64,000 nucleotides of DNA. Source: Thioalkalivibrio sp. ALJ21. Lineage in GTDB: Bacteria > Pseudomonadota > Gammaproteobacteria > Ectothiorhodospirales > Ectothiorhodospiraceae. Below are positions 20,988 to 25,717 of the stretch, piece after piece. The stretch's first letter is position 1, and each line of letters opens with the position of its first letter. The notes under the pieces are model-generated. The model saw only the letters and a list, made by a program, of their open reading frames with translations, searched no databases and had not been told where the DNA came from. The DNA lies in contig NZ_KB905156.1 in the NCBI RefSeq assembly GCF_000378605.1, positions 415,209 to 479,208 of the forward strand, read 5' to 3'. The position numbers and the translations under genes are program-made.

Positions 20988-22169
20988 TCAGGCTTCCAGG
21001 GCCCGGGCCGGGCCAAAGAACTCGAAGAAACAACGCTCGTCCGGCACACCCAGTTCACGCAGCTGCTGACGCACCTGCCGCATGAACGGCGTCGGCCCCA
21101 GGAAATACACATCGACCTCCGTGCGATGCGGGAGCCATTCGGCGAGCTTGTCCCGGGTCAGGAAGCCGGTCGCATCGGCGGCATCCTCGTTGGCAGGCTC
21201 GCTGTAGCAGAAGTACGGGCGCAGATGATCGTGCTCGCGCGCCCGCGCCTCGACCTGCTCGCGAAAGGCATGGACCCCGCTGTGGCGGGCGCAATGGATG
21301 AAGTGCACCCGGCGACCGGCCTGCAGTGCCGGGTCCAGCATGGCCATGGTCGGGGTAATCCCCACACCCGCCGAGATCAGGGCCAGCGGACGATCGCTTT
21401 CGCGCAGGACGAAATCACCGGCCGGCGGGGTGAGTTGCAGCACATCGCCCTCCTGGATGCGGTCGTGCAGAAAGCGCGATACCCGGCCTTCCGGCTCCCG
21501 CTTCACGCTGATGCGCAACCCGTCCGCACCCGGCGGGATGGAGAGCGAGTAGTTGCGGCGCAGCTCTTCGCCATCGATATCCACCTTCAGCCCGATGTAC
21601 TGACCGGGCTGGAACGGTGGGACCGGCCCGCCGTCCTGGGGCTCCAGATAGAAGGAGGTGATCTCCTCGCTCTCCGGCACCTTGCGGCGCACGACAAACG
21701 AACGCAGCCCGCGCCAGCCGCCCGCCTGCGCCTCGGCCTGCTGATAGGCATCCTCCTCGGCGGCGATCAGGATATCCGCCAGCTGCTGGTAGGCCGCACC
21801 CCAGGCCTCCAGCACGGCGTCGGTCGCGACCTCCTCGCCCAGCAGCTCGCGCATCGCCCGCAGCAGGCACTCGCCCACAATCGGGTAGTGCTCCGGCTGC
21901 ACCTGCAGCGACACATGCTTGTTCACGATCTGCCCGACCAGCGGGCCCAGGGCCTCCATCTCGTCGATATGCCGCGCGTACTGCAGCACCGCATTGGCCA
22001 GCGCCCGCGCCTGCTGGCCGCTCGCCTGATGGGCCTGGTTGAACAGGGGCCGTACCTCGGGGTAGTCGCGGAACATGATGCTGTAGAAGTGGCGGGTCAG
22101 GTCCTCGCCCCCGGATTCCAGGATGGGGACCGTCTTCTGGATGATGGCCTTGTGGTCGTCCGACAGCAT
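20988..22169 (-). CDS. hmp: Flavohaemoprotein, nitric oxide dioxygenase
   Basis: The protein has 393 residues, equal to E. coli Hmp. The globin part (residues 1-140) keeps Tyr29 (HFYS) and the haem ligand His85 (VNKHVSLQV). The reductase part has RRNYSLSIPPG (FAD site), GVGITPTMAML (NADPH loop) and the closing CFFEFFGPA. It turns nitric oxide plus oxygen into nitrate in the cytoplasm. AAGGAAG precedes the start. Its promoter closely matches that of the putative NO reductase operon 3.4 kb away. Its stop sits back-to-back with that of the C26 gene. Confidence 0.96.
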   Translation of the reverse strand: MLSDDHKAIIQKTVPILESGGEDLTRHFYSIMFRDYPEVRPLFNQAHQASGQQARALANAVLQYARHIDEMEALGPLVGQIVNKHVSLQVQPEHYPIVGECLLRAMRELLGEEVATDAVLEAWGAAYQQLADILIAAEEDAYQQAEAQAGGWRGLRSFVVRRKVPESEEITSFYLEPQDGGPVPPFQPGQYIGLKVDIDGEELRRNYSLSIPPGADGLRISVKREPEGRVSRFLHDRIQEGDVLQLTPPAGDFVLRESDRPLALISAGVGITPTMAMLDPALQAGRRVHFIHCARHSGVHAFREQVEARAREHDHLRPYFCYSEPANEDAADATGFLTRDKLAEWLPHRTEVDVYFLGPTPFMRQVRQQLRELGVPDERCFFEFFGPARALEA

Positions 22170-22202
22170 GTAGGCTTCCTTATGTTTTAATCGAGATGCA
22201 GC

Positions 22203-22251
22203 TTTATACGGGCGACTTGCGACGCCGTCAAATAATGGATACCCAATGCGT
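22203..22251 (-). promoter_or_regulatory. hmp promoter with upstream dyad (shared with the NO reductase operon)
   Basis: On the minus strand a -35 TTGACG (22226-22231) and -10 TATAAA (22203-22208) are 17 bases apart. Two bases before the TTTGACG lies an imperfect dyad ACGCAT-N5-ATCCAT (22235-22251), which fits the NsrR-type pattern ATGYAT-N5-ATRCAT at 10 of 12 positions. The -10 continues into AGCTGCAT, as at 25617-25675. Confidence 0.7.
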
Positions 22252-22397
22252 GTTTAAGGGCAGCCCCATGCAATACGGGGACCGCTATCCCGTCGATATC
22301 GCTCCGAAACACACCCGGACATCGGCTTGCCCTGGCGCCCGAACACCCGCGGCACACGAGCGGCCATCAGCGCATGGCCGGGCACAGGTGGGACCAT

Positions 22398-23018
22398 TCA
22401 TAGCGCCCGTGACAATTGACTCTGATCAAGAGTCTCGCCGGCGACCACCTGGCGGTGCCGATTGGGTGGCCCGAAAAACAAAAGCGCAAGGATTGCAGCC
22501 AGACTGATCGCCCCCAGCCCCAGCATGATGTTGCCCAGCATCAACTGCTCGCCCAGGAGATACGCATTGCACAGCCTGTCCGGGGCCTCGCGGTAGAGCC
22601 AGCCCATCACGAAGAACATGGCCGTACCCTTGACCCACAGCACGCCGCGCACCAGCAACGGGAGCCGGTGTGCCGTCAACCCCAGCGGTATCCCGGCCAG
22701 CAGCACGAGTGTCACGATCTTCATCCAGCCCGCCCCGGCCTCGAGTACGGCCGCATCCAGATTGCGGGGCAACAGCCAGTAGACGACAACGAACAGCGCC
22801 AGAAGGAGCCCCAGCACCCCGTACTCATCCAGGCGGGCAGCCCGGATGCGCCAGACCTCCGGCAGCGACCGGGCCATCAGCGCACCCGCCAGCACCAGCA
22901 GCGGGATCTGCACCAGCATGTGGCCGATCAGGCTGGCCTCGAGCCAGAGCCTCAGGGGCGTCAGGACGAGTACTGCCAGCAATGCCGGCCCCGCCCAGAC
23001 GGTGGACGGCCGCGTCAC
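22398..23018 (-). CDS. Six-helix membrane protein of the putative sNOR operon (Orf1-like)
   Basis: The protein has 206 residues. Six membrane segments can be placed, at about residues 9-27, 31-52, 68-87, 98-117, 124-144 and 161-182. No known domain was recognised beyond that. The GTG at 23018 gives a GTGA overlap with the SCO stop; a TTG one codon earlier is possible. Fourth place after a CuA subunit, a haem-copper subunit and a SCO protein is the position of orf1 in the norSY-senC-orf1 clusters known from ammonia oxidisers. An assembly or haem/copper handling role is likely but unproven. Confidence 0.75.
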   Translation of the reverse strand: MTRPSTVWAGPALLAVLVLTPLRLWLEASLIGHMLVQIPLLVLAGALMARSLPEVWRIRAARLDEYGVLGLLLALFVVVYWLLPRNLDAAVLEAGAGWMKIVTLVLLAGIPLGLTAHRLPLLVRGVLWVKGTAMFFVMGWLYREAPDRLCNAYLLGEQLMLGNIMLGLGAISLAAILALLFFGPPNRHRQVVAGETLDQSQLSRAL

Positions 23019-23626
23019 CAACGCGGCTCCAGGTAGGCCAGCACGTCGTCCACCGCATCGATGTCGTGAATCCCGGCCACGCGGGCGTCTGGCTCCACCA
23101 CGTAAATGGCACCGTTGTGCACGAAGTCCTGGCCGTCCGGGATCACCACCACCTGGAAGTGGCGCAGTAGGCGATCCAGGTCCTCTCGGGTTTTCGGGCG
23201 TGCGAGATGCCAGGCCTCGGGGTTAGCCGAGAAGCGCTCGCCATACTCGAGCAGGCGCGCGGCATCGTCGTTCTCGAGATCGAAGGTGATGCTGAGCAAG
23301 GCTACGCGCTCGCCCAACACATCCTCCGGCAGCGCCTCCTGGATGCGGTGGAAGCTTGCCCCCAGCGTGGTGCAGGCGTGGTGGCAGCCGGTGTAGATGA
23401 AATCCAGTACCACATACCGATCGCCCAGCTCGGCCAGGTCCAACTCCCCACCCCGCGCATCCTCCAGCGTCATCGCAGGCACCGGCGCCGGATTCTCGCG
23501 GGCGGCGAGACGGCGCGCCTCCTCCGCAGTAAACGCACGAAAGCCGTCGGTGGCCAGGGACAGGGTGGTAAAACCACCCAGCCCGAGGGCGATGATGGTC
23601 AGCCCGTAGATCGCATTACGCCACAT
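23015..23626 (-). CDS. senC: SCO1/SenC family copper chaperone
   Basis: The protein has 203 residues. One N-terminal membrane segment (about 6-25) anchors a thioredoxin-like domain. The copper-binding motif is in YTGCHHACTTLG (CxxxC), and the distal His belongs to the region FQVVVIPDGQDFVHNGAIYVV. SCO proteins deliver copper to the CuA site of subunit II, which is encoded two genes upstream. The gene overlaps the catalytic subunit gene by 11 bases and the next gene by 4, so it is part of one coupled operon. Confidence 0.9.
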   Translation of the reverse strand: MWRNAIYGLTIIALGLGGFTTLSLATDGFRAFTAEEARRLAARENPAPVPAMTLEDARGGELDLAELGDRYVVLDFIYTGCHHACTTLGASFHRIQEALPEDVLGERVALLSITFDLENDDAARLLEYGERFSANPEAWHLARPKTREDLDRLLRHFQVVVIPDGQDFVHNGAIYVVEPDARVAGIHDIDAVDDVLAYLEPRW

Positions 23627-25067
23627 TGTTCGCCACCCGCTTCAGTCCGAGGAAGAAACGCAACGCCAGCAACAGCGTTCCAAGGATCACCAGAGCCGCG
23701 GCAACCGAACCCAGCTGGGCATAGGCCGCCCATTCGGGCAGATGCTCGGCGAAACGTCGCGGCACACTGGACGCGCCGCTGTAGAGGAACACGGCCACCA
23801 GGGCCAGGCCGCCACCGGTAAAGGTCCAGAACCCCAACCGGTCGAAGAAGCCATCGCCCTCCGCCTGCGAACGGGTCAGCCACGCCATGAAGCCGAACAT
23901 CATCGCGACCACACCCAGCAGCAGATAGAAGTGGAAGTGGCCCGGGACCCAGAGGGTGTTGTGCATCACCGTGTTGACCACGATGGTCGCGTCGATGATG
24001 GCCGGGATCACGCCGGCCGCCCAGCCGAACACACCGAGGAAGACGAACCCGGAGGCGATATCCCAGCGGATACCGGAGCGGTAGACGTTGGTCAGCGCGC
24101 CCCAGGCCGTCACCAGCAGTACCGGCAGACCACTCGTGTAGGAGATCACCTGCCCCAGCACGTGCAGCGAGGTCGGCTGCGAGAAGTCCATCAGCAGGTG
24201 GTGCGGATAAACCAGAAGCACCATCACGGTAGAAGCCGCCCAGGCTGCCAGGAACACCCGCGATACCTTCCAGGGACGCCCGGTGTAACGGGGCAGGATT
24301 TCGTAGACCCCGATGACCGCCATGTAGATCGTGGCGTTGATGAACACGTGGCCGAAGAAGTAGGTCAGGTTCTTCGCCCACAACGAATCAATCTCGAACC
24401 CCGGCTGGTAGAGGTTGATCAGGCTCATGCTCAGAATCGCCGCGCCGGCCACGATGCCGAGGGTGTTCACGATCAGCACCATGGTGCTGGCCACCACCGC
24501 GGGCGGCGGCGGATCACCCGCCCGACCGAACAGCTGCGGAAGACCGAGCGAGCGGCCCAGCCCGCCATAGTTCGTGATCAGCGCCCGCGCGATATCGATG
24601 TACAGCAGCAAGAAGCCGACGCCGATTGCCAGCAGCCCGAGGAAGAACGACGCCGCGGCGGCCTGCGTCCACAGGCCCATCGGGGTCTGCGGCAGCGGGT
24701 AGAGGAAGGTCCAGGCGCCGGCAAAGCCGCCAATGAAGATGCCGCCCAGGATCAGCACCGCCCCCAGCAGGAACAGCGCCAGATTGAGCAGGAACACGCC
24801 GGTGGACAACTCCACATGACGACGCAGGAAATACCACATCACCGCGCTGGACCCGAGGGCCACCGCCCCGACCATGCCGGCACCATGCGCCGTCAGCACC
24901 TGGTAGAAGCCGGCGGCTCCCATCAGGTCCATGCCCGCCTGTTCCAGACGCATCAGCAGCCCAAAGACCATCATCAGCAACAGCACGACCACTGTGGTCG
25001 CCAGATAGGTAATCACCGCGTTGCGTGCGCCGCGCGGCACGGCCGGTTCCATCGTCGTATCACTCAT
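23616..25067 (-). CDS. Haem-copper oxidase superfamily subunit I, probably sNOR-type nitric oxide reductase (NorY-like)
   Basis: The protein has 483 residues and about twelve membrane helices. Haem and CuB ligands are present: His61 (TAHGAGMV), His240 (FFGHVFIN), His289/His290 (VYPHH), and His377 and His379 (PGHFHFYL). Oxygen-reducing A- and B-family enzymes carry a tyrosine four residues after the helix VI histidine (HPEVY). Here that residue is Asn244 (HVFIN), which argues against ordinary oxygen reduction. A CuA subunit, a SCO protein and a six-helix protein accompany it, the set seen in norSY-senC-orf1. Standard pipelines would probably label it cytochrome c oxidase subunit I. Activity is inferred, not shown. 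Confidence 0.8.
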   Translation of the reverse strand: MSDTTMEPAVPRGARNAVITYLATTVVVLLLMMVFGLLMRLEQAGMDLMGAAGFYQVLTAHGAGMVGAVALGSSAVMWYFLRRHVELSTGVFLLNLALFLLGAVLILGGIFIGGFAGAWTFLYPLPQTPMGLWTQAAAASFFLGLLAIGVGFLLLYIDIARALITNYGGLGRSLGLPQLFGRAGDPPPPAVVASTMVLIVNTLGIVAGAAILSMSLINLYQPGFEIDSLWAKNLTYFFGHVFINATIYMAVIGVYEILPRYTGRPWKVSRVFLAAWAASTVMVLLVYPHHLLMDFSQPTSLHVLGQVISYTSGLPVLLVTAWGALTNVYRSGIRWDIASGFVFLGVFGWAAGVIPAIIDATIVVNTVMHNTLWVPGHFHFYLLLGVVAMMFGFMAWLTRSQAEGDGFFDRLGFWTFTGGGLALVAVFLYSGASSVPRRFAEHLPEWAAYAQLGSVAAALVILGTLLLALRFFLGLKRVANNVA

Positions 25068-25073
25068 GACCGT

Positions 25074-25592
25074 TTACTCCGTGACGGTGAGTTCGGCGAC
25101 CATCGCGTGATGCGCGACGCCGCAGTATTCAAGGCACAGGACCTGGTAGGTACCCGGCTGCTCGAAGGTGTACTCGAGGATGTTCGTGTAGCCCGGCATC
25201 GCCTGGGTCTGGGTCAGCAGGGTCATGTCCTCGTCGTAGATGGCGAACCCGTGGTTCACGTCCTGGCTGGTCACGCGGAACTGCACCGGCTCACCGACGC
25301 GAAACTCGTCCTGCGACAGGTCCCAGCGCCACATGTGACCGGTCACGTTGACCGTCTGTACCCCTTCGGCCTCCGCGTCGGCGCCGTAGGGCATCAAGGT
25401 CAGGGTGTAGAGAAACACCGGCGTGACCACTGCCAGCAGAACCCAGAAGCTCCAGTCACGCAGGCGATAGGAACGGGCCGCCAGCTCACCGGCATCGACC
25501 GAGGCCGGCCGCGAAAAGGCGGCCCAGAGGAAGACGGCCGTGACCGGGACAACCAGCAGGATCGTCAGTAACAACGAGACGGATTGCAGCAT
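25074..25592 (-). CDS. CuA-containing subunit II of the putative sNOR (NorS-like)
   Basis: The protein has 172 residues. Two membrane segments (about 3-24 and 49-68) precede a cupredoxin domain. The CuA ligands are intact: His in VNHGFAIYD and the block CLEYCGVAHHAM with Cys, Cys, His and Met at the right spacing. The GHMWRWDL stretch corresponds to the aromatic electron-entry region of oxidase subunit II. The ATG at 25592 is preferred because GGAG lies 6 bases upstream; the ATG at 25604 is possible. It should take electrons from a cytochrome c in the periplasm and pass them to subunit I. Confidence 0.85.
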   Translation of the reverse strand: MLQSVSLLLTILLVVPVTAVFLWAAFSRPASVDAGELAARSYRLRDWSFWVLLAVVTPVFLYTLTLMPYGADAEAEGVQTVNVTGHMWRWDLSQDEFRVGEPVQFRVTSQDVNHGFAIYDEDMTLLTQTQAMPGYTNILEYTFEQPGTYQVLCLEYCGVAHHAMVAELTVTE

Positions 25593-25626
25593 CGCAAGCT
25601 CCATTTTGTTATAGATGCAATGCAGC

Positions 25627-25675
25627 TTTATACCGGGGCGCCACCGATGCGTCAAACGATGTATCTTCTATACAT
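25627..25675 (-). promoter_or_regulatory. Promoter of the putative sNOR operon with perfect upstream dyad
   Basis: On the minus strand, -35 TTGACG (25650-25655) and -10 TATAAA (25627-25632) are 17 bases apart. The dyad ATGTAT-N5-ATACAT (25659-25675) ends two bases before TTTGACG. The -10 runs on into AGCTGCAT. This is the same layout as at hmp (22203-22251), and the dyad fits the NsrR pattern ATGYAT-N5-ATRCAT at all 12 positions. Confidence 0.75.
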
Positions 25676-25717
25676 GTTAATGACGGGGGCCGCACGAAAG
25701 GCGATTGGCAGTGGTAA

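Follow-up and report, generated by a model that had tools for sequence, protein, structure and literature searches.

A predicted NsrR regulon of hmp and norSY-senC-orf1 with a common promoter design and two NsrR-like operators

In the window (the whole 64-kb stretch of DNA analysed here), hmp and the norSY-senC-orf1 unit are preceded by promoters of the same design. We conclude, with a probability of about 0.84, that the two units form an NsrR regulon. Sites, genes and conservation were read from sequence, and from these we infer NsrR binding, repression, a response to nitric oxide (NO) and NO reduction by NorSY.

Two promoters with the same layout and paired predicted operators

An earlier note on this DNA had described two promoters whose -35 and -10 elements are identical, and both are confirmed in the sequence, on the minus strand. 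The hmp promoter has TTGACG at 22226..22231 and TATAAA at 22203..22208; the norS promoter has the same boxes at 25650..25655 and 25627..25632, each pair with a 17-base spacer. Upstream of the -35 boxes lie a perfect dyad before norS (ATGTAT-CTTCT-ATACAT, 25659-25675) and a second dyad before hmp (ATGGAT-ACCCA-ATGCGT, 22235-22251; ACGCAT-N5-ATCCAT on the minus strand). Read on the minus strand, each dyad is followed by 2 bases, TTTGACG, 17 bases and TATAAAGCTGCAT. The pattern TTTGACG-N16-18-TATAAAGCTGCAT has exactly two matches in the genome, the hmp and norS promoters, and none in the reversed control. Perfect 6+6 inverted repeats with a 5-base gap are not rare per se, with 49 in the window, and 25659-25675 is the only one of them whose arms contain four or more A/T.

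These two upstream dyads, which the earlier note had reported, are real and form the cores of NsrR-like 23-bp operators that abut the -35 box (O1), at 22232..22254 for hmp (AACACGCATTGGGTATCCATTAT, 13/18) and 25656..25678 for norS (AACATGTATAGAAGATACATCGT, 16/18), both on the minus strand. The note had overlooked two further sites on the same strand, which lie over the -10 boxes (O2), at 22182..22204 for hmp (AAGCTGCATCTCGATTAAAACAT, 13/18) and 25606..25628 for norS (AAGCTGCATTGCATCTATAACAA, 12/18). These four are among the 13 places in the window at which the NsrR consensus scores at least 12/18. Judged by these matches, the common TATAAAGCTGCAT is not just a -10 box but also the start of the predicted second operator. 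The predicted operators thus border the promoter and extend over it, an arrangement that suits a repressor. The note had been puzzled that the dyad occupies an activator-like position. O1 does lie upstream of -35, and the puzzle eases given a second operator over -10.

We propose that each unit would be transcribed from a strong σ70 promoter (TTGACG-17-TATAAA), with O1 abutting the -35 box and the weaker O2 overlapping the -10 and start region. Without NO, dimers of iron-sulfur NsrR would occupy O1 and O2, blocking RNA polymerase at either end. NO would attack the NsrR cluster, NsrR would leave, and both NO sinks would be induced. Hmp would then convert NO to nitrate when oxygen is present, and NorSY would reduce NO to N2O, with electrons from cytochrome c via CuA and copper from SenC.

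The 23-bp consensus used for scoring is the usual form of the NsrR operator; checked against other promoters, it scored 16/18 at E. coli hmp and 18/18 at norS of genome G055. Across 15 promoters its scores peak at only two offsets, O1 (13.3/18) and O2 (12.7/18), against a mean of 4.97 over all offsets. When columns were permuted for 14 promoters, 0 of 20,000 permutations reached the observed value at O1, and the same was true of O2 once the columns on which the promoters had been aligned were excluded. O2 also resembles NsrR sites well beyond the -10 box: outside those columns 8.6 of 13 positions match, where permutation gave a mean of 3.9.

Conceivably, only one of O1 and O2 is an NsrR operator and the other is a different regulator's site or promoter sequence. 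The quality of O1 and O2 differs between promoters, position 4 of O2 is C in 14/14 promoters where NsrR sites have A, and the degenerate hmp O1 is weak in several genomes (13/18 in this genome, 11/18 in G003). However, the same consensus peaks at both offsets and both pass column permutation, and a gammaproteobacterial MAG outside the genus (L080) has a similar pair, two sites 52 bp apart around a presumed promoter. We therefore consider a single operator unlikely. A role for NsrR or another dimeric factor as an activator at O1 of both promoters, with the common -10 region being only core promoter, seems less probable still, at a little under one chance in ten by our reckoning. A site abutting the -35 box is a frequent activator position, and direct activation by NsrR has one precedent in the available part of PMC4432287, at the LEE promoters of E. 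coli O157:H7. Against this, a promoter so close to consensus, with a spacer of the optimal 17 bases, would have little need of an activator, the NsrR-like bases of O2 extend beyond the -10 box as described above, and in E. coli hmp the operator also lies over the presumed -10.

Conservation, the regulator gene and a probable third target

The earlier note had suggested scanning related genomes for the promoter. The pattern TTGAC-N18-TATAAAGCT has 14 matches in 30 genomes of the genus, 10 before hmp and 4 before norS, and none elsewhere or in the reversed control, so the core is conserved and exclusive to these genes. The note had also held that, as the spacers differ, the likeness of the two promoters reflects selection and not a recent copy, and this view is upheld. 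Identity between the promoters is 14/23 in O1, 6/6 in the -35 box, 5/17 in the spacer, 4/4 in TATA and 16/23 in O2. A recent duplication between neighbours, giving likeness without shared regulation, could be entertained because hmp and norY are 1.4 to 1.5 kb apart in three genomes. It is largely refuted by the spacers and by the layout being kept in genomes with hmp but not norSY and in G021, which has norSY but not hmp; we regard it as extremely improbable.

The regulator gene is outside the window, as the note had said, and the search it advised located an nsrR-like gene elsewhere in the genome, at C1:846398-846826 on a different contig. Rrf2 profiles match five genes (one below cut-off), and among the four scanned this one alone is closest to NsrR. 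This protein scores 150.9 bits against the NsrR profile NF008240, 113.2 against the Rrf2 superfamily and 93.2 against RirA. Its score is below the NF008240 equivalog cut-off of 182 bits, but NsrR of S. coelicolor (135 residues), which has been studied by experiment, reaches only 91.5, so that this cut-off does not cover the whole family. The best PDB match is NsrR 5n07 (E 2.6e-27). In the alignment to 5n07, Cys92, Cys97, Cys103 and Asp8 fall on its three cysteines and its Asp8, and a gap of one residue lies between the first and second cysteine; Asp8 of 5n07 is, we presume, the oxygen ligand of the cluster.

Genus-wide, nsrR is present in 13/13 genomes with hmp or norY and in 2/17 with neither, a contrast for which relatedness among the genomes inflates Fisher p-values. 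G026 has nsrR and none of the three targets (hmp, norSY and the mini-COX1 unit described below). Together with the regulator gene, the conserved core and nsrR-like genes near norSY elsewhere, this co-occurrence supports the link through NsrR that the note had drawn between hmp and the NO-reductase-like operon.

Autoregulation of nsrR was considered and rejected, as no site of at least 12/18 lies wholly within 300 bases upstream in 14/15 genus genomes. A match of 12 to 14/18 spans the nsrR start codon in three genus genomes. Separately, an ATATRCG...GCATAT element is conserved upstream of nsrR.

Near-perfect operator cores occur at 21 places in the genus (2 in the reversed control), of which 14 loci were examined, with the norS site of the window genome as a 15th. 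Ten of the 14 are internal to reading frames of 150 aa or more and were set aside as chance matches, and the core in L168 is O1 of an hmp. Those in L165, L166 and L176 fall in one intergenic region, which is shared with L010 of the window genome and which revealed a third unit. This mini-COX1/GcvH-like unit is probably a third NsrR target. It occurs in 14 genomes, all 14 with nsrR, and also has an FNR-type site. The regulon also brings out a small COX1-like protein as a candidate for an NO-related factor.

Identity and disputed role of norSY

The first unit, hmp (20988..22169, minus strand), encodes a flavohaemoglobin NO dioxygenase of 393 aa with globin, FAD-binding and NAD-binding domains (NCBIfam NF009805, NO-inducible flavohemoprotein, 568.4 bits, cut-off 432). 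What the earlier note called a putative NO reductase or oxidase-like operon can be named norSY-senC-orf1 (sNOR) from its gene order, CuA motif and Asn-for-Tyr substitution. All four genes are on the minus strand. norS (25074..25592; 172 aa from the ATG at 25592) encodes subunit II with the CuA motif CLEYCGVAHHAM, read from the sequence (PF00116, 33.6 bits). norY (23616..25067) encodes haem-copper subunit I (PF00115, 162.8 bits), in which alignment to oxidases places Asn244 at the position of the cross-linked Tyr. senC (23015..23626) encodes a SCO1/SenC copper chaperone (PF02630, 44.1 bits), and orf1 (22398..23021), the fourth cluster gene kept in many relatives, encodes a presumed membrane protein that gave no match in Pfam and NCBIfam profile searches. 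Loci of Nitrosospira, Aromatoleum and alphaproteobacteria also have the order norS-norY-senC-orf1.

In an alignment of 77 sequences, the window included, 76 have Asn where HPEVY has its cross-linked Tyr, and one is unreadable (L136, L139 and L148 were left out of this alignment). A CuA motif like CLEYCGVAHHAM was found in plus frames of 56/77 related loci; the 21 without it are Bacillota. By their contig numbers and positions, L071 and L144 probably come from genomes G020 and G021 and do not count as independent of them.

Whether sNOR reduces NO or oxygen is disputed for ammonia oxidisers in the available text of PMC6967387, which argues that the Nitrosomonas enzyme is an oxidase: it is induced by oxygen limitation, resembles B-type oxidases and lacks five conserved NorB glutamates. 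By extension, norSY could be a high-affinity oxidase, with NsrR control reflecting a need for an NO-tolerant oxidase. We think this improbable. The Asn that occupies the cross-linked Tyr position is tied to NO reduction in Bacillus qCuANOR, according to the accessible part of PMC3475470, and norSY has a promoter of the same design as that of hmp, an NO dioxygenase gene. The common promoter links an enzyme of respiratory type, whose role is disputed, with NO defence, and joint control with hmp by an NO sensor, of which other lineages show signs too, speaks for sNOR acting in NO removal. In the available portion of the genome paper for Thioalkalivibrio thiocyanoxidans ARh2 (PMC5328954), a table lists genes for nitric oxide reductase among those not found; an ARh2 contig (L071) carries norSY adjoining hmp.

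The genome analysed is probably that of a Thioalkalivibrio, and the hosts are probably soda-lake sulfur bacteria. A broader proposal, to which we give even odds, is that in non-denitrifying soda-lake sulfur oxidisers NsrR clamps promoters from both ends, and that hmp, norSY-senC-orf1 and the undescribed mini-COX1/GcvH-like unit are a dedicated NO defence. The sNOR would then be detoxifying and not respiratory, and mini-COX1 would be a new NO-related membrane protein.

Other lineages and known systems

Of 79 related loci, 9 have an nsrR-like gene in the vicinity of norSY; seven of these genes are closest to the NsrR model and two are marginally closer to RirA. The operator scan took in 69 of the 79; the other ten (L088, L105, L109, L114, L117, L119, L120, L138, L139 and L148) were left out as norS was cut, partly aligned, near a contig end or absent. 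A site of at least 13/18 precedes norS in 7/9 loci with a nearby nsrR-like gene (there is none in L115 and L131), compared to 9/60 of the other loci scanned. As 51 of these 60, which have no nsrR-like gene in the stretch, have no site before norS, NsrR control is not general for sNOR. For hmp outside the genus, no site of at least 12 was found in 4/10 loci (L154, L155, L157 and L158). The strict two-operator pattern matched once in 369 genomes of the class, in an AT-rich stretch.

In a table of PMC3772326, the locus tags of NsrR (Noc2967) and sNOR (Noc2969-2971) of Nitrosococcus oceani are neighbours. In the available portions of the literature searched, this table, which lists both, is the only printed link between NsrR and norSY/sNOR.

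As in the NsrR regulon of gamma- and betaproteobacteria outlined in the available part of PMC1274295 (Rodionov et al. 2005), where the present genus does not feature, the predicted regulator is an NO-sensing repressor of the Rrf2 family; hmp is the most conserved target there, and NO reductase genes (norB) are targets in some lineages. In contrast to the regulon of that source, the NO reductase here is a haem-copper sNOR instead of norB or norVW, and two operators hold fixed positions around one promoter. The E. coli hmp promoter (NC_000913.3) has an NsrR operator (16/18) over the presumed -10, in almost the register of O2, but no second site of at least 12/18 in the 260 bases scanned and hence no O1 counterpart. 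The four-gene order, CuA subunit II and Asn for the oxidase Tyr are shared with sNOR of ammonia oxidisers and qCuANOR of Bacillus azotoformans (available parts of PMC4940428 and PMC3475470). In contrast to these systems, the unit described here is in a host that is probably a sulfur oxidiser, and it adjoins hmp with the same promoter design. The regulon is a new instance of a kind already known, with an unusual two-operator layout.

Promoters of hmp and the norSY unit

In the window (G000:C2:415209-479208), hmp occupies 20988-22169 on the minus strand, and a four-gene minus-strand unit (norSY-senC-orf1) comprises norS (CuA subunit II), norY (haem-copper subunit I), a SCO1/SenC gene and a gene whose product is presumed to be a membrane protein. 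The hmp and norS promoters are 3.4 kb apart, and norS and argB are divergent. The closest named relatives of NorY come from Thioalkalivibrio thiocyanoxidans ARh2 (97% identity) and Thioalkalivibrio sp. ALE14 (95%), which suggests Thioalkalivibrio as the genus. An earlier note had described a shared promoter design with an NsrR-like dyad, and on re-reading the window all its promoter coordinates and sequences were correct. The dyad alone is little proof because the window holds 49 inverted repeats of this kind (6+6, perfect, with 5 bases between the arms); among them only the perfect dyad of the earlier note has AT-rich arms.

The core TTTGACG-N16-18-TATAAAGCTGCAT has exactly two matches in the 2.96-Mb genome (reversed control, 0). 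Scanning 30 genomes of the genus, as had been proposed, showed the core to be conserved: TTGAC-N18-TATAAAGCT gave 14 matches, spread over 11 genomes (reversed control, 0); by the hmp/norY match coordinates, 10 precede hmp and 4 precede norS. The G010 hmp promoter keeps these elements around a spacer of 18 bases, and that of G006 lacks the conserved elements, including TATAAAGCT. Inside one genome the hmp and norS spacers have 5 of 17 bases in common and the functional elements agree. The layout is also retained in genomes having just one of hmp and norSY, which makes recent copying between the two promoters unlikely.

Two NsrR-like operators at fixed offsets

The 23-bp NsrR consensus is AAGATGYAT-N5-ATRCATCTT; it scores 16/18 at E. 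coli hmp and 18/18 at norS of G055. Scores of at least 12/18 occur at 13 places in the 64-kb window, four of them inside the hmp and norS promoters. We aligned 15 genus promoters with TATAAAGCT (11 hmp, 4 norS), leaving out G006 hmp, which lacks it. The consensus peaks at just two fixed offsets, against an all-offset mean of 4.97/18: O1, 23 bases ending at the start of the -35 box (mean 13.3/18), and O2, beginning within the -10 box (mean 12.7/18). With one identical hmp copy removed, 14 promoters were subjected to 20,000 alignment-column permutations, which retain kinship between sequences because whole columns are permuted. No permutation reached the observed fit of O1, or that of O2 once the five columns that served to align it were removed, and the right arm and spacer of O2 alone gave p 0.0016. 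O2 departs constantly from the consensus at one position, position 4, which is C in 14/14 promoters.

The promoters are near consensus and have an operator at either end, an arrangement that suits repression by NsrR. We consider it likely (probability about 0.84) that hmp and norSY-senC-orf1 form an NsrR regulon, with binding, repression and NO response as expected from the family; our confidence is slightly reduced because two of nine norSY-adjacent regulators are not clearly NsrR. NsrR at the flanking operators would repress both units, and NO would relieve this by destroying its iron-sulfur cluster. The NsrR reading of the earlier note is kept, and the activator-like position of its dyad is less of a puzzle given the second operator over the -10 box. 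Direct activation by NsrR, reported for another system in a passage of PMC4432287, agrees poorly with O2.

An nsrR-like gene and a probable third unit

An Rrf2 profile search of the genome gave six matches in five genes; two share one reading frame on C4, whose 347-aa product carries two Rrf2 domains in tandem (G000:C4:164855-165673). The match at C1:162843 fell below the cut-off; family scans covered the other four genes. Two genes are IscR-like, the first upstream of a cysteine desulfurase-like gene and the second at G000:C1:611452-611838, and one is NsrR-like. This candidate for the regulator gene sought by the earlier note lies outside the window at C1:846398-846826. Its product scores 150.9 bits on the NCBIfam NsrR model (cut-off 182), still above all other models; S. 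coelicolor NsrR scores 91.5 bits. The candidate's product can be aligned with 5n07 along 133 residues, among them Asp8 and three Cys.

nsrR is present in 15/30 genus genomes, 13/13 with hmp or norY and 2/17 without (Fisher p 1.8e-6; 1.2e-5 when only genomes of 90% completeness or more are counted; these statistics ignore phylogeny). It begins ~440 bases after hmp in G006, and G026 has nsrR and lacks hmp, norY and the COX1-like unit described below. An AT-rich element, ATATACG...GCATATC, recurs upstream of nsrR in many genus genomes (e.g. loci L035, L037 and L040) and does not fit the NsrR consensus.

Near-perfect cores occur at 21 places across the genus (reversed control, 2). Three of 14 examined places fall in one common intergenic region, that of a weaker site in our genome at C1:1194933, upstream of a small COX1-like gene (region G000:C1:1194484-1195014, L010 and L178; PF00115 24.9 bits, cut-off 34.8). 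A GcvH-like gene (105.4 bits) and a thioredoxin-like gene lie downstream, and two hemerythrin-domain genes are divergent. The COX1-like gene is found in 14/30 genomes, all nsrR-positive (Fisher p 2e-7), including G018 (66% complete), where hmp and norY were not found. An FNR-type TTGAT-N4-ATCAA (one mismatch allowed) is present in 13/14 of its promoters, and in all 13 an NsrR-like site scoring 12 to 15 of 18 abuts it downstream at constant distance. The NsrR-like site there scores at least 13 in 9/14 genomes, that of G006 without an FNR-type site; in G006 the COX1-like gene is divergent from hmp, and nsrR adjoins.

norSY in other lineages and known NsrR systems

A pattern-seeded, non-exhaustive survey (one genome per species) gave 78 loci, 77 of them with NorY relatives; L148 (24% identity over 208 residues) was dropped. 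The order norS-norY-senC-orf1 is widespread among them. An NsrR-query match lay within the stretch searched at eight survey loci and G055 (9/79). Seven of these nine regulators are closest to the NsrR model; for L115 and L122 the RirA model scores marginally higher (110.6 vs 109.1 and 107.5 vs 106.1 bits). A norS-upstream site of at least 13/18 is present at 7/9 loci with an adjacent nsrR-like gene, L115 and L131 lacking it, vs 9/60 scanned loci without (Fisher p 2.9e-4), or 8/36 without when Bacillota and Actinomycetota are excluded (p 0.003). The nine of 60 loci that have a site but no adjacent nsrR-like gene include the genus members L071 and L144, whose nsrR is located elsewhere. L071, T. 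thiocyanoxidans ARh2, has norSY-senC-orf1 adjoining hmp; according to a passage of PMC5328954, this strain is one where nitric oxide reductase was not found. In Nitrosococcus oceani, a table in PMC3772326 places NsrR (Noc2967) and sNOR (Noc2969-2971) at neighbouring locus tags. Other regulators probably serve norSY at the scanned loci of Nitrosospira, Aromatoleum and nearly all Bacillota, because these have no NsrR-like site upstream of norS (the Bacillota exception, L142, scores 13). In the range L105 to L139, 21 loci from Bacillota gave neither a CuA motif nor a match to senC or orf1, some of them on short contigs.

The Tyr of the oxidase HPEVY motif is cross-linked to a CuB His. NorY H240-V-F-I-N244 aligns on this motif of PDB oxidases, and Asn244 therefore replaces the Tyr. 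Asn is found in 76/77 aligned sequences, the window's included (the remaining one is unreadable), and seven His are conserved, H61 in 76 and the other six in all 77. According to passages of PMC3475470, purified Bacillus azotoformans qCuANOR, grouped by its authors with nitrifier sNOR, has the same Asn, as does the predicted type II. Part of PMC6967387 argues that Nitrosomonas sNOR may act chiefly as an oxidase. The probable control in common with hmp speaks for NO removal as the role of norSY.

NsrR control of hmp and some NO reductases is already established, as a passage of PMC1274295 states. Literature searches on NsrR with norSY, norY or sNOR found no statement of NsrR control of norSY, and as far as such searches go the NsrR regulon in this genus and the COX1-like third unit are new. 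The two-operator layout also appears new to this extent, a narrow search on paired NsrR binding sites having returned only a Vibrio PecS paper. A gammaproteobacterial MAG (L080) has a norS promoter much like it, with two sites (14/18 and 17/18) 52 bp apart, TTGACA between them and the second site over the presumed -10 region. Like O2, the E. coli hmp operator overlaps the presumed -10 box (TATAAG), with the register one base off.
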